A DNA stretch of 64,000 bases from Massilia litorea (GTDB taxonomy: Bacteria; Pseudomonadota; Gammaproteobacteria; Burkholderiales; Burkholderiaceae_D), in assembly GCF_015101885.1 (NCBI RefSeq), contig NZ_CP062941.1, forward strand, positions 2,914,001 through 2,978,000, read 5' to 3'. The translations under genes and the position numbers were made by a program. Below, in pieces: positions 9,619 to 27,336 of the stretch; the stretch's first letter is position 1, and each line of letters starts with the position of its first letter. Below the pieces are notes generated by a model. The model was not told the DNA's origin. It saw only the letters and a program-made list of their open reading frames with translations, and did not search any database.

Positions 9619-10467
9619 ATGAAAACACCTCCTTTGCAGGTCGTGCCGCCGACAGGTCCCTTGCTGCGCGCGGAGCATGTGACGCTCGAATACACGGGTA
9701 GCCGGGGCGTCGTGCGTGCCACCGACGATGTCAGCTTCGACGTCCACCGCGGCGACCGCTTCGTCCTGCTCGGGCCTTCCGGTTGCGGCAAGTCGACGTT
9801 GCTGAAAGCGGTGGGCGGCTTCATCACGCCGCGCGCGGGCAGCCTGCGCCTCGGCGGCAAGCCGATCACGGGACCGGGACCGGACCGCATCGTCGTGTTC
9901 CAGGAATTCGACCAGCTGCCGCCCTGGAAGACAGTCGAGAACAATGTCATGTTCCCGCTGCTGGCCGGCGGCATGAAGAAGGCGGAAGCACGCGAGCGCG
10001 CCCGCCACTGGCTGGGCAAGGTCGGCCTGGCGCGCTTCGCCGAGGCGTATCCGCATACCCTGTCGGGCGGGATGAAGGCGCGGGTCGCGATCGCGCGCGC
10101 ATTGGCCATGCAGCCGGACATCCTGCTGATGGACGAGCCTTTCGCCGCGCTCGACGCGCTCACCCGGCGCACCATGCAGGAACAGCTGCAAACCCTGTGG
10201 GAAGAAATCGGTTTCACGATGTTGTTCGTGACCCACTCGATCGAGGAAGCGCTGGTTGTGGGCAACCGCATCCTGCTGCTGAGCCCTCATCCGGGCCGCG
10301 TACGCGCTGAACTCAACAGCCACCAGTTCGACCTCGGCAGCGCGGGCAGCGCGGAGTTCCAGGCGGCGAACGAACGCATTCACCGGTTGTTGTTCGGCGA
10401 CGGGCGCGTAGGCGAAACCCCGGCGCGTGTGGCGCCGGCTCACCAGGCCCTGGCGGTGCACTCATGA
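9619..10467 (+). CDS. NitT/TauT-type ABC transporter ATP-binding protein
   Basis: A 282-residue ABC ATPase that powers the importer. Walker A is GPSGCGKST near residue 54, the Q-loop follows as VVFQEFDQLPPWKTVENN, the signature is LSGGMKAR and Walker B is ILLMDEPFAALDALTRR. The switch histidine is in LFVTHSIEEAL. The PPWKTVENN Q-loop is characteristic of the SsuB/TauB/NrtD subgroup. The gene starts one base after the binding-protein stop and overlaps the permease start by 4 nt (ATGA). Confidence 0.93.
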   Translation: MKTPPLQVVPPTGPLLRAEHVTLEYTGSRGVVRATDDVSFDVHRGDRFVLLGPSGCGKSTLLKAVGGFITPRAGSLRLGGKPITGPGPDRIVVFQEFDQLPPWKTVENNVMFPLLAGGMKKAEARERARHWLGKVGLARFAEAYPHTLSGGMKARVAIARALAMQPDILLMDEPFAALDALTRRTMQEQLQTLWEEIGFTMLFVTHSIEEALVVGNRILLLSPHPGRVRAELNSHQFDLGSAGSAEFQAANERIHRLLFGDGRVGETPARVAPAHQALAVHS

Positions 10468-15420: not shown

Positions 15421-16188
15421 ATGTCCCTGCCAAAACTGATCCTCGTCGCCGGCCTCGTGCTGGCAGCCAACGCCGGCGCGCAAACGCTGCCGGCGCCCGC
15501 ATCGTCACCATCCACCGCGGGCACGATGGTCATCGTGCCGGCCAACGGCGAAGTGCGCCACGCGAACGACCAGGCAACGGTCGTTTTCGCCGTCGAGGAA
15601 TTCGACAAGGACAAGGCTGCGGCCGCGTCGCGCGTGAACCGCAAGATGAAGGAAGGCACCGAGATCGTGCGCCGTGCCGATCCGAAGGCGGAACTCAAAA
15701 CGCAAGGCTATTACACCTATCCGGTCTACCCCGAGCCGCCGGTGCCGATGCCGGCGAGCCGTACGCCCGTGAAGCCGGTGCCGAGCGGCTGGCGCGTCGG
15801 GCAGTACCTGGAGGTGAAGACGACGAATCTGGCCGAGCTGCCGAAGACGGCGGCTGCGGCGCAGAAGGTGTTACAGATTAACGGCATCAACTTCGGCCTG
15901 GCCCCGGCAACCGAGAAGATGCTGGACGACCAGCGGATCGCCGCGACTTACCGCAACCTGAACGAGCGCATCGTCTCGATCGCGCGCGCGATGGGGCGCC
16001 AGCCGGCCGATGCGGTGCTCGATACGGTCGACTTTGAAGGAACCGGAAATTATGGCGGGGACCGCAGCGAGAAGATGATGATGCGCGCCGCGGCGCCCGC
16101 TTCGGCGGATGCGGCGGCCGAACCAAGTTTTGAACCAGGAGAAACGACGCTGCAGATGCGTCTGGTAGGCAAGGTGAAGTTCAAATAA
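15421..16188 (+). CDS. periplasmic SIMPL-domain (DUF541) protein
   Basis: A 255-residue exported protein. Residues 1-20 form a signal peptide ending in NAGA. The rest is a SIMPL domain: MVIVPANGEVRHANDQATVVFAVEE is its typical opening strand, with KTQGYYTYPVYPEP and GQYLEVKTTNLAELPKT as later blocks. The E. coli relative YggE lowers oxidative stress by an unknown route. It stands alone between ilvC and pssA. A palindrome overlaps its presumed promoter region. Confidence 0.82.
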   Translation: MSLPKLILVAGLVLAANAGAQTLPAPASSPSTAGTMVIVPANGEVRHANDQATVVFAVEEFDKDKAAAASRVNRKMKEGTEIVRRADPKAELKTQGYYTYPVYPEPPVPMPASRTPVKPVPSGWRVGQYLEVKTTNLAELPKTAAAAQKVLQINGINFGLAPATEKMLDDQRIAATYRNLNERIVSIARAMGRQPADAVLDTVDFEGTGNYGGDRSEKMMMRAAAPASADAAAEPSFEPGETTLQMRLVGKVKFK

Positions 16189-21230: not shown

Positions 21231-21254
21231 CTGTCCGCAAGGGCAGGTTTTTTT
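21231..21254 (+). terminator. hairpin plus T-run at the 5' end of the rpsO leader
   Basis: CTGTCC and GGGCAG pair around the GCAA tetraloop and are followed by GTTTTTTTAA. This looks like an intrinsic terminator, but there is no upstream plus-strand gene nearby; it sits at the expected start of the rpsO transcript. It may be a 5' stabilising hairpin or an attenuator. Confidence 0.5.
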
Positions 21255-21311
21255 AATCAAATCACGGTGCGCTGGGTTGCGACTCTTGCACCGCATGTGA
21301 AAGGTAACATC

Positions 21312-21581
21312 ATGTCCGTAGAAAACATCAACAAGTCGGCAATCATCGCCGACAACGCACGTGGCCAGAACGATACCGGTTCGCCGGAAGTCCAGGTCGC
21401 ACTGCTGACCGCACGCATCAACGAACTGAACGGCCACTTCAAAGCCCACCAGAAAGACCACCACTCGCGCCGCGGCCTGATCATGATGGTCAACCGTCGT
21501 AAGAGCCTGCTGTCTTACCTGAAGAGCAAGGACCTGAACCGTTACCGCGACCTGATCGCCAAGCTCGGCCTGCGTAAGTAA
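21312..21581 (+). CDS. rpsO: 30S ribosomal protein S15
   Basis: An 89-residue ribosomal protein that binds 16S rRNA in the small-subunit platform. The sequence is canonical, with [20 protein letters not shown] and [19 protein letters not shown] as the rRNA-binding helices. The ATG at 21312 has an AAGGTAA site 5 nt upstream; an open frame extends further upstream but S15 always starts here. It is followed by a terminator and then pnp, the order conserved across proteobacteria. In E. coli S15 represses its own translation; whether the leader here does so is unknown. Confidence 0.97.
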
Positions 21582-21608
21582 TTTTTGCGCCAGACGGCTT
21601 AAGTCACG

Positions 21609-21650
21609 AAATGCCTGCGTCAGTTCGACTGTCGCGGGCATTTTTTGTTT
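21609..21650 (+). terminator. rpsO terminator
   Basis: AATGCCTGCGTCAG pairs with CTGTCGCGGGCATT around TTCGA, with one mismatch and one G-U pair, followed by a run of T. It separates rpsO from pnp; partial read-through into pnp is usual in this gene pair. Confidence 0.8.
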
Positions 21651-21765
21651 GAGCGTTTGTTGTTTTTGTTGTAAAGACGCGTAGTAAAGGCGGTCCTTGA
21701 GACCGTCTGCGGTGAGGTGAACGACAGCTCCTGAAAATCTGTCGGCAAATAGAAAGGGATTACCA

Positions 21766-23868
21766 ATGTTTAATAAAGTTACGAAGACCTTCCAGTACGG
21801 CCAACACACCGTCACCCTGGAAACCGGTGAAATCGCCCGTCAGGCTTCCGGCGCCGTCCTGGTGTCGGTCGAAGACACCGTGGTGCTGGCTACCGTCGTC
21901 GCACGCAAGGACGCCAAGCCAGGCCAGGATTTCTTCCCGCTGACCGTCGATTACATCGAAAAAACGTATGCTGCCGGTAAAATCCCGGGCGGTTTCTTCA
22001 AGCGCGAAGGCCGTCCTTCCGAAAAAGAAACGCTCACCTCGCGCCTGATCGACCGTCCGATCCGTCCGCTGTTCCCGGAAGGCTACCTGAACGAAGTCCA
22101 GGTCATCATCCACGTGCTGTCGGTCAATCCTGAAATCGATCCGGACATCCCTGCGATGATCGGCGCCTCGGCCGCCCTGTGCGTCGCCGGCATCCCGTTC
22201 AACGGCCCGATCGGCGCCGCCCGCGTCGGCTACGCCAACGGCCAGTACATCCTGAACCCGAGCACCACCCAGCTGAAAACCTCGCAGATGGACCTCGTCG
22301 TCGCCGGTACCGAAACGGCCGTGCTGATGGTCGAATCCGAAGCGCAGCAGCTGTCCGAAGAAATCATGCTGGGCGCGGTCGTCTTCGGCCACGACCAGAT
22401 GCGCGCCGTGATCGACGCGATCCACGCCCTCGTCGAAGAAGGCGGCAAGCCTGAAGTCGAGTGGAATGCACCGGCCAAGAACGAAGCCCTGATCGCCCAG
22501 GTGACCGAGCTGGCTGCCGCCAAAGTGCGCGACGCCTACCAGACCCGCGAAAAGTCGGCACGCCAGCAAAAGCTGAAGTCGCTGTCGTCGGAAGTCATGG
22601 CAGCCCTGTCGGAGCAAGGCGTCGCCGCCGATGCAGCCGAAGTCGGCAACATCCTGTTCGACATGGAAGCCAAGGTCGTGCGTTCGCAGATTCTGGACGG
22701 CGAGCCACGCATCGACGGCCGCGATACCCGCACCGTGCGTCCGATCTCGATCCGTACCGGCGTGCTGCCGCGTACCCACGGTTCGGCCCTGTTCACCCGC
22801 GGCGAAACCCAGGCGCTGGTCATCGCGACCCTCGGCACCGCCCGTGACAGCCAGAAGATCGACGCGCTGATGGGCGAGTACACCGACGACTTCATGATGC
22901 ACTACAACATGCCTCCGTTCGCCACCGGCGAAACCGGCCGTGTGGGCACCCCGAAGCGCCGCGAAATCGGCCACGGCCGCCTGGCCAAGCGCGCACTGGT
23001 CGCAGCCCTGCCTAACCCTGAAGATTTCAGCTACTCGGTGCGTCTGGTGTCGGAAATCACCGAATCGAACGGTTCCTCGTCGATGGCATCGGTCTGCGGC
23101 GGCTGCCTGGCACTGATGGACGCCGGCGTGCCGATGAAGGCGCACGTCGCCGGCATCGCCATGGGCCTGATCAAGGAAGGCGGCAAGTTCGCCGTCCTGA
23201 CCGACATCCTGGGTGACGAAGACCACCTGGGCGACATGGACTTCAAGGTCGCCGGTACCACCGCAGGCATCACCGCGCTGCAGATGGATATCAAGATCAT
23301 GGGCATCACCAAGGAGATCATGCAGGTGGCACTGGCGCAAGCCAAGGAAGCCCGCCAGCACATCCTGGTCGAGATGCAGAAAGCCGTGCCGAGCGTCAAA
23401 ACCGAACTGTCGGACTTCGCTCCACGCCTGATCACGATCAAGATCAACCCTGAGAAGATCCGTGACGTCATCGGCAAGGGCGGCGCCGTCATCCGCGCGC
23501 TGACCGAAGAGACCGGCACCCAGATCGACATCACCGACGAAGGTATCGTGACCATCGCCTCGGTCGACGCCGCCGCCGGCCAGGAAGCCAAGCGCCGCAT
23601 CGAAGAGCTGACCGCTTCGGTCGAAGTGGGCAAGACCTACGACGGCACCGTCCTGAAACTGCTGGACTTCGGCGCCATCGTGCAGGTCATGCCAGGTAAA
23701 GACGGCCTGCTGCACATCTCGCAGATCGCCAACGAGCGCGTCAACGCCGTGGCCGACTACCTGAAGGAAGGCCAGCAAGTGCGCGTGAAGGTCCTCGAGA
23801 CCGACGAGCGTGGTCGCCTGAAGCTGTCGATGAAGGCTGCGGATCCGGCGGAAGCTGCGGCGCAATAA
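21766..23868 (+). CDS. pnp: polyribonucleotide nucleotidyltransferase (PNPase)
   Basis: A 700-residue 3'-5' phosphorolytic exoribonuclease, part of the RNA degradosome. Two RNase PH domains ([18 protein letters not shown] in the first; [16 protein letters not shown] in the second) flank a helical linker. A KH domain ([16 protein letters not shown]) and an S1 domain ([20 protein letters not shown]) follow. The gene is complete with the usual short tail after S1. Its last 86 nt are repeated at 25850-25935 downstream of the peptide/rhomboid segment, with two base differences. Confidence 0.97.
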
Positions 23869-23900
23869 GCAAGGCTGAAGCGGTTCGCCGCTTCGATACG

Positions 23901-23936
23901 AAAACCGCCAGTGCGTGAGCCTGGCGGTTTTTTCGT
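23901..23936 (+). terminator. pnp terminator (copy 1 of 3)
   Basis: AACCGCCA and TGGCGGTT pair around GTGCGTGAGCC, followed by a T-run. Almost the same hairpin, including the loop, recurs at 25965-25997 and 27304-27336. Confidence 0.88.
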
Positions 23937-23989: not shown

Positions 23990-25195
23990 CTAAGTGATTA
24001 ATATTGCATAACCTAAAAAATATGTCCAAAAAAAATATATGAGTCCGGCAAAGTAAGCAAAGCCGATCACGATAGCAGTGCCCGATTTGTCCCGTCCTGA
24101 TCGCGTTCTGCCGCGCGTTGAGCCCTCGCGACAGACAGAAAGAGCGTAAACGTAGCCAGATAAAAACCCTCCGATATGACTGGATACATCTGTGCCGTCA
24201 GATATTACGTCGACTAAAAACTGTAATGCTAATCCGAGCCCTAGCGCCCAAATTGGAATGGATAAACTCCCCGGGAGTCGTTTATGATGTCTTATGCACA
24301 CAAAATAATATGCCCCGTAGAGGCCAAGTATTCCGCCGGACGCGCCTATTACAATTTGGTGCGGGGAGAATGCAAGACTTAATAGCGATCCAATTATTGC
24401 CGAGTAGAGAAGTATAACTACGAGTCGCACGTGCCCAAAAATTAAGCCAATGTAGCGACCCATTATGCCTAAGGATAAAATGTTAAATCCAAGATGGAAC
24501 GGAGTGGAATGCAAAAAAAACGATGACGCTAAGCGGTAGAACTGATTGGTCGACAAAGTTGTTTTCGTCAAGCCGCCATATGCAAGCGCGCCTTGCCCGA
24601 TGTTTTCAAAATCTGGCGACGCCAGCATCAGGTACGATGCCACTAACGTTAACGAAAGAAACGAGATTACGGAAGAACTTTTAGCGGTCTCTTCTTTCGA
24701 CGCCACGAGGAATTCCGAAGCCTTTATCTCAGGTTGTCTCGCGAACGCAGCCTGGTTTAGGAAGCACACAAAATCTTCAAAATCGTCGCACGAGTTGAAG
24801 CGTCGCCGCTCTATTAAAATCGAGTATTTATCATGGCGCCCCACTAATACGGCAATTGGTCCATTAGCGTTAAAAAATTTCTCGACTGATTTTATTTCGG
24901 AGAATCTCACCAGATAAGGCTTAAAGAAAAGCCTGGGTATGGACAAAATATTGTTTTGAGCTGTGATATTGTTTTTGGTATTGGCTGTTTGCAAATATTT
25001 GTAAATCCCTAGCGCACAGCATGCGAAATAAAGAGCGGCAATAGCGGCTATGAAATGAATTCTACCACCCGCATTACTGCGAAAAACCGACCAGGTCGTT
25101 AAGGCAAATGCAGAACTAAGGGCGATGAGAGCGGTTCGAAGCGTGGTGAAGTCAGCGCTTTGGTTTAGTCGCCAGGCTACTTTGATAGTAGGCAT
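23990..25195 (-). CDS. rhomboid-family intramembrane serine protease
   Basis: A 401-residue membrane protein. Residues 20-67 hold two hydrophobic helices, 90-155 a soluble region (IPRLFFKPYLVRFSEIKSVE onward) that resembles no domain I can name, and about 175-401 a rhomboid core. The catalytic dyad is intact: S286 in GASG and H340 in SSHIGGF. H234 and N238 (FHLGFN) form the usual oxyanion-side pair, and FYRLASSFFLHS is the L1-loop region. Codon use and base composition are AT-richer than the neighbours, which suggests transfer. It lies 66 nt downstream of a leader-peptide gene on the same strand, with a terminator between. Role unknown; processing of, or immunity to, that peptide is a hypothesis. 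Confidence 0.85.
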   Translation of the reverse strand: MPTIKVAWRLNQSADFTTLRTALIALSSAFALTTWSVFRSNAGGRIHFIAAIAALYFACCALGIYKYLQTANTKNNITAQNNILSIPRLFFKPYLVRFSEIKSVEKFFNANGPIAVLVGRHDKYSILIERRRFNSCDDFEDFVCFLNQAAFARQPEIKASEFLVASKEETAKSSSVISFLSLTLVASYLMLASPDFENIGQGALAYGGLTKTTLSTNQFYRLASSFFLHSTPFHLGFNILSLGIMGRYIGLIFGHVRLVVILLYSAIIGSLLSLAFSPHQIVIGASGGILGLYGAYYFVCIRHHKRLPGSLSIPIWALGLGLALQFLVDVISDGTDVSSHIGGFLSGYVYALSVCREGSTRGRTRSGRDKSGTAIVIGFAYFAGLIYFFWTYFLGYAILIT

Positions 25196-25205
25196 TGTTA
25201 GCTTT

Positions 25206-25243
25206 CAAAAAAAGAGCTGCGTTACCGACGTGGAAAACGCAGC
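25206..25243 (-). terminator. intrinsic terminator between peptide and rhomboid genes
   Basis: On the minus strand GCTGCGTT pairs perfectly with AACGCAGC across a 12-nt loop, then TCTTTTTTT follows. It lies after the peptide gene and before the rhomboid gene, so most transcripts would end after the peptide and a minority would read into the rhomboid gene. Confidence 0.8.
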
Positions 25244-25261
25244 CTTTTAATAGTTTTAGTA

Positions 25262-25552
25262 TTACGTTAAGAAACTAAGGAAATCTCCGTTTTTGTTGAT
25301 GAGCAAAGTGTATCCGGCATAACCCGCTAGGCCAGCCAAGGCAATGACAGTTATAGGAGCGGCAGCGAACGCTACGCCGACCGTTGTTGCACCCCACGCA
25401 GCGCCGCCGAACGATGTTGCCCCAATGGCGCCTGCCAAGCCCAGAGCAGCGGCGGTCTGTTTAGGCCCTGCTCCACTAACATTCATTACTTCATCCATTG
25501 TCAAATCTTGGACGCCACTGTTGCTTTCTTGCGAGGTCATGATGTCGTTCAT
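25262..25552 (-). CDS. bacteriocin-like peptide with a Gly-Ala leader
   Basis: A 96-residue peptide. Residues 1-28 look like a double-glycine-type leader: DLTMDEVMNVSGA has the hydrophobic/acidic spacing of L-x-x-x-E-(M/L)-x-x-VSGG, with GA at 27-28 in place of GG. The predicted mature part (29-96) is very rich in Gly and Ala and has two hydrophobic stretches (about 34-66 and 67-85) with small-xxx-small motifs, then a polar end (NKNGDFLSFLT). This matches unmodified class II bacteriocins or microcins that insert in membranes. The ATG at 25552 has a GGAGAA site. No peptidase-containing exporter is in the window. A toxin role is inferred from the leader, not shown. Confidence 0.7.
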   Translation of the reverse strand: MNDIMTSQESNSGVQDLTMDEVMNVSGAGPKQTAAALGLAGAIGATSFGGAAWGATTVGVAFAAAPITVIALAGLAGYAGYTLLINKNGDFLSFLT

Positions 25553-25668
25553 ATGTTCTCCAAAAAAGTATGTTGAGGGTTGAAGCCAGAGAATAGTTGC
25601 CCACCCTTTAAGTTACGTATCGGTTGCCCGCATAGAGTATGAGTAAGAACCGATAACTCACAGTACTC

Positions 25669-25827
25669 TTATTTCCCACTGGAAACTAAATCTTGATCAA
25701 ATGTAGCCTTGGCGAGGATCACCGTACCGTACTGCCGCGCTTTGATATGTTCGATCGCTTGCAGGCGAAACAATGGATGGCTGGATAGGTCTTGACTGCC
25801 GTCTAATGATGTTGGTGCTTGGTTCAT
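25669..25827 (-). other. short open frame, possible gene remnant
   Basis: A 52-residue frame beginning MNQAPTSLDGSQDLSSHPLF and ending after ATFDQDLVSSGK. SSHPLFRLQAIEHI faintly recalls the C-terminal block of M48-type peptidases (STHP...R...). It is on the same strand as, and upstream of, the peptide gene. The frame runs into the pnp duplication at 25850, so it may be the tail of a gene cut at that junction. There is no good ribosome-binding site. Treat as uncertain. Confidence 0.25.
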
Positions 25828-25849: not shown

Positions 25850-25935
25850 GCGTGAAGGTCCTCGAGACCGACGAGCGTGGCCGCCTGAAGCTGTCGATGA
25901 AGGCTGCGGATCCGGCGGAAGCTGCGGCGCATTAA
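25850..25935 (+). pseudogene. pnp: duplicated 3' end of pnp (fragment)
   Basis: These 86 nt match the last 86 nt of pnp (23783-23868) at 84 positions, including the stop codon. The differences are one synonymous change (GGT to GGC) and CAA to CAT in the last codon. The match continues past the stop, with small indels, through the pnp terminator to 25997. There is no start or S1 domain, so it is not functional. It forms the right border of the AT-rich segment that starts after the real pnp terminator. Confidence 0.9.
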
Positions 25936-25964
25936 TCCACGGAGCGGTTCGCCGCTTCGATACC

Positions 25965-25997
25965 AAACCGCCAGTGCGTGAGCCTGGCGGTTTTTTT
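25965..25997 (+). terminator. duplicated pnp terminator (copy 2 of 3)
   Basis: The same hairpin and loop as 23901-23936 (AACCGCCA, loop GTGCGTGAGCC, TGGCGGTT, T-run), part of the duplicated pnp end. Confidence 0.85.
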
Positions 25998-26077
25998 ATG
26001 CGCGGACGAGCGCCACGGATGGCCGCGGGCAGGGCACTGCGCTACAGTTCGGTGTTGCCGATAAGAAAGGGATTGTG

Positions 26078-27277
26078 ATGTGGGAATGGCTCGGGTTCAA
26101 GAAACCGTCGCCGCAAAGCTTTGCCCACGCGCTGATGAAGTACGCGGCCGATCATGGCTTCGATGGACCCATGTGTTTCGATGCCACGCGTTTCCGTATT
26201 CTCACGGGCGAGACCGGAAACGGCATCGTCAACCTCGCCAACCTGTACCCAGGCTACCGCAATGCCAGGCGTAGCGAGCGCGGTGCACACCTCGCGCGCT
26301 GCTTCGCCATGTTCGGCGGGGAAGAAATGCCGACGGGCTTTGCGCAGGCGCGCGCCAACCTGCTGCCGGCGATCCGGGCGCGTTCGTACGTCGAATCGGC
26401 CTCGCTATCCGCAGGCGCGCACGGCGTGACCGTGTTCGGCGACGGCGCGTTCGCGGTCCTCGGTAGCGACGCTGTCGTGGTGCTCGCATATGATCACGCG
26501 GATTCGATGAATATCCTTACCGGCACGCAGGTGGAGGCGCTGGGTGTCCCGTTCGCCACCGCACTCGATGCGGCGCTCGCGAACCTGCGCGACCGTTCGG
26601 TCGAGACCTTGGTGCGCCGGCCCGACGGCGTGTGTATCGCGGCCTGGAACGACGCTTACGATTCCTCGCGCATCCTGCTGCCCGACGTCGTGCACCGGGC
26701 CGGCATCGCCAATCCGGTTGCGATGGTTCCGACGCGCGACCAGTTGCTGGTGGCGCCCGCCTCGGACCGCGCGGCCTTGCTGGCGATGCTCGACCTGGCG
26801 CAGGCTTGCCACGAGCACGAGGGCCGGCCGGTGTCGGCGTCGCTGTTCCATTTCGAACATGGTAGCGCGCAAGAGTTCGTGCCGGACGATGCAGAAGTGG
26901 TGCTGCGCCTCGCCAATCTGAAGCAGCTTTACCTGGCCGACGATCACGCGTGCCAGAAACAGGACCTCGACGCGGACAACGAGCAACGCAGCATCGACCT
27001 GTTCGTCGCTACCTTCGCTGTGTGGCAGCGCGAAGGCGATCCGCGCCTGGTCAGCGCGTGCACCTGGTCGGAGGGCGTCGAAGCCTTGCTGCCGCGTACC
27101 GACATGGTGTCGTTCGTCAGCCTGGACGAGGCAGGACAGCTGCGCCACGCGGGGACGGTCGAGTGGGCGCAGGTGCACGCGGTTGCGGGGCACCTGATGG
27201 CGCCCGAACCGGGCATGTATCCGGTGCGTTATCGCGTCAGTCACTTCCCGGACCTGCGCGACCTGGGCTTGCAATAA
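26078..27277 (+). CDS. DUF1444-like protein of unknown function
   Basis: A 399-residue cytoplasmic protein without signal or membrane helix. It opens MWEWLGFKKPSPQSFAHALM and has a block RSYVESASLSAGAHGVTVFG near residue 107. NPVAMVPTRDQLLVAPASDR (about 209-228) resembles the C-terminal block of DUF1444 proteins, where a pvamvPsRD-LL pattern is conserved. The assignment is by memory of that pattern and is moderate. The ATG at 26078 is preferred to the GTG one codon earlier; AGAAAGGG is the ribosome-binding site. It lies between two copies of the pnp-type terminator. Confidence 0.6.
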   Translation: MWEWLGFKKPSPQSFAHALMKYAADHGFDGPMCFDATRFRILTGETGNGIVNLANLYPGYRNARRSERGAHLARCFAMFGGEEMPTGFAQARANLLPAIRARSYVESASLSAGAHGVTVFGDGAFAVLGSDAVVVLAYDHADSMNILTGTQVEALGVPFATALDAALANLRDRSVETLVRRPDGVCIAAWNDAYDSSRILLPDVVHRAGIANPVAMVPTRDQLLVAPASDRAALLAMLDLAQACHEHEGRPVSASLFHFEHGSAQEFVPDDAEVVLRLANLKQLYLADDHACQKQDLDADNEQRSIDLFVATFAVWQREGDPRLVSACTWSEGVEALLPRTDMVSFVSLDEAGQLRHAGTVEWAQVHAVAGHLMAPEPGMYPVRYRVSHFPDLRDLGLQ

Positions 27278-27303: not shown

Positions 27304-27336
27304 AACCGCCAGTGCGTGAGCCAGGCGGTTTTTTTG
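27304..27336 (+). terminator. pnp-like terminator (copy 3 of 3)
   Basis: AACCGCC and GGCGGTT pair around AGTGCGTGAGCCA and are followed by seven T. The stem and loop are nearly those of the pnp terminator, but the upstream pnp sequence is absent. It ends the DUF1444-like gene. Confidence 0.85.

Follow-up and report, generated by a model that had tools for sequence, protein, structure and literature searches.

A rhomboid protease gene as a candidate immunity gene beside a microcin-like peptide gene in Massilia litorea

What does an intramembrane protease do directly downstream of a small peptide with a double-glycine leader? The question is raised by two adjacent minus-strand genes in a stretch of 64,000 nucleotides (nt) from Massilia litorea (the window; positions 2,914,001 to 2,978,000 of contig NZ_CP062941.1). 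The first encodes a 96-residue precursor peptide and the second, after a gap of 66 nt, a rhomboid intramembrane serine protease; both lie in an islet behind the host gene pnp. Few bacterial rhomboids have a known natural substrate, and here a candidate substrate is encoded beside the enzyme. We read the pair as a microcin-like cassette of class II whose immunity position would be taken by an active rhomboid protease that cuts the peptide, with a probability of about 0.5. If true, a bacterial rhomboid would gain a co-encoded natural substrate, and there would be a proteolytic form of microcin immunity.

The peptide-rhomboid pair

The precursor has the properties given in a preliminary description of this DNA. 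Its leader ends ...LTMDEVMNVSGA, and its 68-residue mature part is hydrophobic, with 43% Ala plus Gly; by analogy, cleavage would fall after VSGA. GGAG stands before the ATG. One search and one iteration, which scored the 7995 candidates sharing most words, gave at least 32 homologues, which argues that the open reading frame (ORF) is more than chance. An alignment of 39 rows shows E at residue 21 in 38 rows, V at residue 25 in 37, G at residue 27 in 38, and A, G, C or S at residue 28 in 38; the one remaining row is leaderless. The core follows the consensus VGAAFAAAPxAVVAMxGLAxYAGY. The leader is thus of the double-glycine type (GG or GA) of class II microcin systems; the match to Pfam MccV (PF17508) stayed below the cut-off of 27 (12.6 bits, E=0.21).

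An NCBIfam match to a putrescine antiporter (15.6 bits against a cut-off of 409) was taken as hydrophobic chance, and a structure model of the peptide was discarded as too weak (pLDDT 64, pTM 0.30). Within the family, P0004-P0012 form a sister group, mostly with VSGC, VSGS or VSGG leader ends and with an insert ahead of the core. A second peptide copy in genome G238, which is 48% complete, appears frame-broken (L024:5744-6056): one ORF holds the leader and terminates at VSGA, and the core is encoded in a different frame.

The rhomboid was likewise confirmed as intact, with the S286/H340 pair first described. Residues 217-356 match Pfam Rhomboid (PF01694) at E=4.5e-25 (88.9 bits against a cut-off of 22.6). 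The GxSG Ser/His dyad and the HxxxN oxyanion residues are present, and G284, S286, H340, H234 and N238 are invariant in all 21 aligned rhomboids, at identities to the window protein down to about 30%. H234 and N238 we take to be the equivalents of GlpG H150 and N154. The structure model predicts two helices and a PH-like domain (about residues 1-159), a core (about 171-358) with the GlpG-type fold, and an extra C-terminal helix. In NCBIfam the protein falls below the cut-offs of two named rhomboid types, scoring 34.4 against 250 for the GlpG equivalog TIGR04239 and 25.9 against 84 for rhombosortase TIGR03902. Pfam on the whole protein at E<=1 gave the Rhomboid domain only, and no CPBP/Abi domain. 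The N-terminal region alone gave only sub-cut-off matches, to the STM3941 family (19 bits against 40) and to Frag1 (17.3 against 30.3).

Membrane-type proteins of about 160 residues stand directly after other double-glycine peptides (L076:1777-2247, L096:1890-2375, L097:1785-2276), with no Pfam or NCBIfam match above cut-off. We considered whether the rhomboid is a fusion of such a stand-alone module, with two transmembrane helices and a PH domain, to a protease; profile comparison gave a probability below 1%, and the idea was rejected.

The pairing itself is conserved. Among 294 genomes of the family, the peptide was found in seven (E<=0.001) and a rhomboid match in 12 (E<=1e-15). Three of the latter are full-length, in M. 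litorea itself (G000), in Massilia arenosa (G113, locus L023) and in a member of another genus (G045, locus L022), while the other nine cover the protease core only; all three full-length genomes are among the seven with the peptide, which lies immediately upstream of the rhomboid. The 62 genomes of the genus tell the same story. The rhomboid profile matched 31 of them at E<=1e-20, three at E<1e-130 with the next at 3e-27; the peptide profile matched 11 at E<=0.001, three at E<1e-30 with the next at 3e-7. The three are the same for both, namely G000, G113 and G684 (locus L066), each with the peptide directly upstream. With G045 as fourth, the peptide adjoins the full-length rhomboid subfamily in 4/4 genomes found, and it does so in loci with different flanking genes. 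The preliminary description had proposed that the rhomboid partners the leader peptide, and had named as observations telling against this a peptide gene lacking homologues with conserved leader and frame, or close homologues of the rhomboid lacking a leader peptide nearby. Within the genomes searched neither was seen: leader and frame are conserved among the peptide homologues, and the partnership stands in all four genomes.

In a sample of 392 genomes of the wider family, 27 had a peptide match, 20 of them weak; the seven strong ones (E<1e-15) were G000, G045, G113 and four genomes of a genus that we label g12 (G181, G192, G203 and G238). Among 399 genomes of the order, the rhomboid subfamily (E<=1e-30) was seen in the M. 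litorea genome only, and a scan of genome contigs with the peptide alignment returned the M. arenosa locus alone. Of 18 database rhomboids belonging to the subfamily (P0035-P0052, three of them short), six appear to have a peptide neighbour: five through assembly-level links, and P0037, whose N-terminal extension hides the C-terminal part of the peptide in another frame (score 67.3; the best of 30 shuffles reached 48.4).

In 4/4 loci the spacer separating the peptide and rhomboid genes folds into a hairpin, with z of -3.57, -2.31, -2.36 and -4.09; the first value is that of the window, where none of 200 shuffles folds as well. By reading of the sequence, a U run follows the hairpin in the window, L023 and L066 but not in L022. 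Hairpin and U run together would make peptide mRNA abundant and rhomboid mRNA scarcer.

The cassette in relatives and the role of the rhomboid

Exporter genes of the kind that serves double-glycine peptides accompany the pair. The order in M. arenosa is peptide, rhomboid, HlyD-type membrane fusion protein, C39-ABC exporter. In G684, HlyD and C39-ABC are divergent, just upstream of the pair, and in G045 they follow the rhomboid, with HlyD frame-broken. In the M. litorea islet there is no C39-ABC gene; upstream of the peptide stands a scrap of HlyD, 60% identical over 38 columns (E=2e-7) to a HlyD of the same genome. That genome has four C39 matches, and the neighbourhoods of three (L033-L035) were examined. 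One holds an intact HlyD and C39-ABC pair at G000:C1:1,074,836-1,078,321, after a gene read from its sequence as gyrB; the two proteins are 57% and 73% identical, respectively, to their M. arenosa counterparts. For L023, L033 and L066, Pfam domains back these assignments. The Cys, His and Asp motifs of C39 are present in 4/4 domains examined (L022, L023, L033, L066). Both exporter components of a class II microcin system are therefore available in trans in M. litorea and lie beside the pair in the three relatives. The preliminary description had spoken of a strain without a dedicated exporter, which was wrong because an intact one exists elsewhere in the genome.

Two more double-glycine peptide ORFs lie in the M. 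litorea genome, far from the islet (L112:1453-1869, about C1:1,377.5-1,377.9 kb). Since these are present, and since the M. litorea C39-ABC protein has matches at E<=1e-150 in 28 of the 62 genus genomes, the exporter may serve several peptides.

The slot after the peptide is filled differently in the g12 genomes, where the same family of peptides occurs and this rhomboid does not. In three of them the gene next downstream of the peptide codes for a protein of 90-109 residues with what, by sequence, looks like one membrane helix; in the fourth (L027) the contig ends after the peptide. These small proteins (L024:6096-6383, L024:15441-15713, L025:9523-9840 and L026:8959-9288) are candidate alternative immunity proteins. 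None has a Pfam match above cut-off. Compared pairwise, the four match in three of six combinations (E 7e-31 to 1e-8) and so resemble a single loose family. At 15619-15765 the second L024 ORF apparently continues in a different frame, and a further match lies in L026 at 9988-10245. Among six weaker double-glycine peptide loci, a membrane-like protein lies directly downstream in four (L070, L076, L096, L097) and not obviously in L073 and L074. Membrane proteins that change behind a peptide are, judged from sequence, how cognate immunity genes behave. The rhomboid occupies the cognate-immunity position beside its peptide, where its role would be protective. That one genus has a small membrane protein and another a protease in this slot, behind the same peptide family, would show how evolution replaces immunity.

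What supports the cassette reading is the conservation of the pair and of the catalytic residues, together with the exporter genes and the different small membrane protein in the slot of another genus. In the mechanism that we propose, a C39-ABC exporter with its HlyD partner would strip the double-glycine leader and export the Ala/Gly-rich peptide; in M. litorea this would probably be the intact pair beside gyrB, since the local exporter is reduced to a scrap. The mature peptide would enter the inner membrane of producing or kin cells, where the rhomboid would bind and cut the inserted peptide, with S286 and H340 acting from the periplasmic side, so that no membrane lesion forms. We favour proteolytic immunity because the enzyme is in the immunity slot, has kept its active site and is located in the membrane that the peptide would attack; the presence of the conserved pair in several related bacteria of soil type suggests a protease that shields the producer from the peptide it makes. 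That the rhomboid is a dedicated immunity enzyme, destroying the mature toxin in the producer's membrane, we put at slightly below even odds.

Several points weigh against this reading. An AFAxxP-type peptide core is found also in the rhomboid-less lineage, so a rhomboid-specific cut site cannot be read off. Peptide neighbourhoods could be assessed for only six of the 18 database rhomboids, the other 12 being uncheckable, and five of the six links are themselves inferred. The correlation of peptide distances with rhomboid distances is only moderate (Mantel r 0.50, p 0.02; eight pairs, five of them assembly-level links, with the G684 pair left out). Toxicity, export in trans, immunity and the cut are themselves inferred. 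Verified class II microcin immunity proteins have 51-216 residues as reported in PMC9746304, against 401 for the rhomboid. Proteases of the CPBP type are not always immunity proteins, SilX being described as needed for production, with no sensitivity upon its loss (PMC9298176). Lastly, the Lacticaseibacillus bacteriocin operons in which a rhomboid gene is listed have a separate immunity gene according to PMC12634818.

The strongest competitor, which we consider rather improbable, places the rhomboid in production: within the producer's membrane it would cut the peptide a second time for release or activation, or process a signal that switches production on. It is a serious rival because intramembrane CAAX proteases of bacteriocin loci may act on signals or toxins and confer no immunity, as reported for SilX with the signal peptide SilCR and for SagE with SagA (PMC9298176), and the invariant catalytic residues would fit it. 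Against it, the C39-ABC exporter of the relatives and of M. litorea itself is already able to take off the leader. Moreover, the g12 peptides go with a small protein that has no recognised protease domain, so part of the peptide family does without a rhomboid cut. The preliminary description had offered self-immunity or maturation and release as alternatives; the immunity half fits the gene slot, while the half on maturation and release is weakened by exporter genes in three relatives and in trans.

Less probable again is protection without cutting, in which the rhomboid would bind the peptide, shield its target, or hand it as a quality-control adaptor to another protease, much as the rhomboid YqgP reportedly does with FtsH, to go by a reference title. 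The predicted two-helix and PH-like N-terminal region could be a binding module, and inner-membrane immunity proteins are described as binding the microcin or keeping it off its target (PMC10333792). A pure binder, however, would not require four active-site residues to be invariant in 21 of 21 rhomboids that diverge to about 30% identity.

We think it unlikely that the peptide is instead a secreted signal or other small exported protein whose level or processing the rhomboid tunes. Double-glycine leaders also serve signalling peptides, the MccV match is under its cut-off, and no member of the peptide family was met with tested activity; yet with its hydrophobic, Ala/Gly-rich mature part the peptide resembles membrane-active peptides of class II, and the membrane-like protein that follows in four of the six weaker double-glycine loci makes a usual toxin-immunity layout. 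Chance neighbourhood of a housekeeping rhomboid and a small peptide gene is very improbable: rhomboids are common (31 of 62 genus genomes, and a second one in M. litorea itself), but the common type matches in the core only (best E 3e-27) while the full-length subfamily (E<1e-130) occurs in peptide genomes only and keeps its adjacency across differing flanks; the version with a random ORF was rejected on the full-length subfamily and the co-occurrence.

The islet after pnp

The G+C content of the islet is 0.43-0.50, against 0.60-0.68 in flanking intervals, except for two at 0.53 near 21250-22000. On either side of the islet stands a near-identical copy of the pnp 3' end and terminator (Table 1). 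Among the 21 genomes searched, the second 3'-end copy was found only in M. litorea's own; in a few, just the terminator is duplicated. The duplicated flanks would be explained if a circular DNA with a pnp end had integrated by a single crossover. There are no direct repeats of at least 24 nt around L022, L023 or L033, so the duplicated pnp end is seemingly no general feature of such loci. An empty site was seen once in 11 relatives examined: in G223 the gene at 26075-27277 has a homologue (40% identity) about 400 nt past pnp, and no islet intervenes. This homologue was not found after pnp, in the available stretch, in the other ten.

The pnp terminator is present three times in the window (23902-23933, 25965-25996 and 27304-27334), bracketing the islet and then the next gene. 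In G685 (L088), two copies surround a stretch of about 1.2 kb after pnp. The stretch after pnp may be a recurrent insertion site.

Searches for carriage by plasmids or phages found no place covering 80% of the rhomboid, the best coverage being at most 71% at 25-38% identity. The peptide was found neither in the plasmids searched nor in viral contigs; the latter held one partial rhomboid relative (L110, residues 189-297, 34%). PADLOC, queried for a role in defence systems, gave no match for either protein.

Table 1. Features of the islet and its flanks, in window coordinates
Feature	Position	Strand	Remarks
Microcin-like precursor peptide, 96 residues	25262..25552	-	leader about residues 1-28, Ala/Gly-rich mature part
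Rhomboid intramembrane serine protease, 401 residues	23990..25195	-	S286/H340
Hairpin and U run, attenuator- or terminator-like, between peptide and rhomboid	25207..25244	-	coordinates counted from folded sequence
Likely ribosome-binding site GGAG of peptide gene	25558..25561	-	by reading of the sequence
HlyD-type membrane fusion protein scrap, about first 40 residues	25669..25836	-	matched stretch 25711-25824
Native pnp 3' end and terminator, left islet flank	23783..23933	+	
Second copy of pnp 3' end and terminator, right islet flank	25850..25996	+	
pnp (polynucleotide phosphorylase), host gene of insertion site	21766..23868	+	name by reading of the sequence; 3' end matched in 20 of 21 genomes

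Comparison with known systems

Rhombosortase, with its GlyGly-CTERM targets, is a rhomboid system serving exported proteins. The present pair is reminiscent of it in that a rhomboid would be dedicated to a class of exported proteins; it differs in the NCBIfam score given above, far below the rhombosortase cut-off. Intramembrane proteases of the CPBP/CAAX (Abi) type in bacteriocin loci are reportedly the subject of Kjos et al. 2010, a cited source. Like the rhomboid here, they stand beside bacteriocin genes, and immunity is reported for some; unlike it, they are metalloproteases with EExxxR and FxxxH motifs (PMC9298176).

The preliminary description knew of no system in which a rhomboid partners such a leader peptide. 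For immunity this held, as the open-access literature, among the matches listed, describes no rhomboid role in bacteriocin or microcin immunity; as a statement about gene neighbourhoods it was too broad, since a rhomboid protease gene is already listed in the class IIa operons Cas1/Cas2 of Lacticaseibacillus (PMC12634818). Those operons are Gram-positive, and in the main text of that source the word rhomboid appears a single time, in the Fig. 1 legend, with no role stated.

Enterobacterales class II microcins (PMC9746304) share with our locus the GG/GA leader, the C39-ABC exporter, the membrane fusion protein and a candidate membrane partner beside the peptide. The differences are the sub-cut-off MccV match and a partner that is a protease; the published pipeline retains immunity candidates of 30-250 residues only, so a partner of 401 residues would be missed by design (PMC9746304). 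Self-immunity of class II microcins has been called largely uncharacterised (PMC10333792).

Closest in layout is mcbABCI of Moraxella catarrhalis, also Gram-negative, where two genes for secretion are followed by one for a double-glycine peptide and then by a gene shown to give immunity (PMC2761928), the order of HlyD scrap, peptide and rhomboid in the islet. The product of mcbI has 74 residues and is described there as lacking similarity to known proteins, in contrast to the 401-residue rhomboid of a locus that has lost its local exporter. The layout is thus a known one; what is new is a rhomboid enzyme in the place of immunity.
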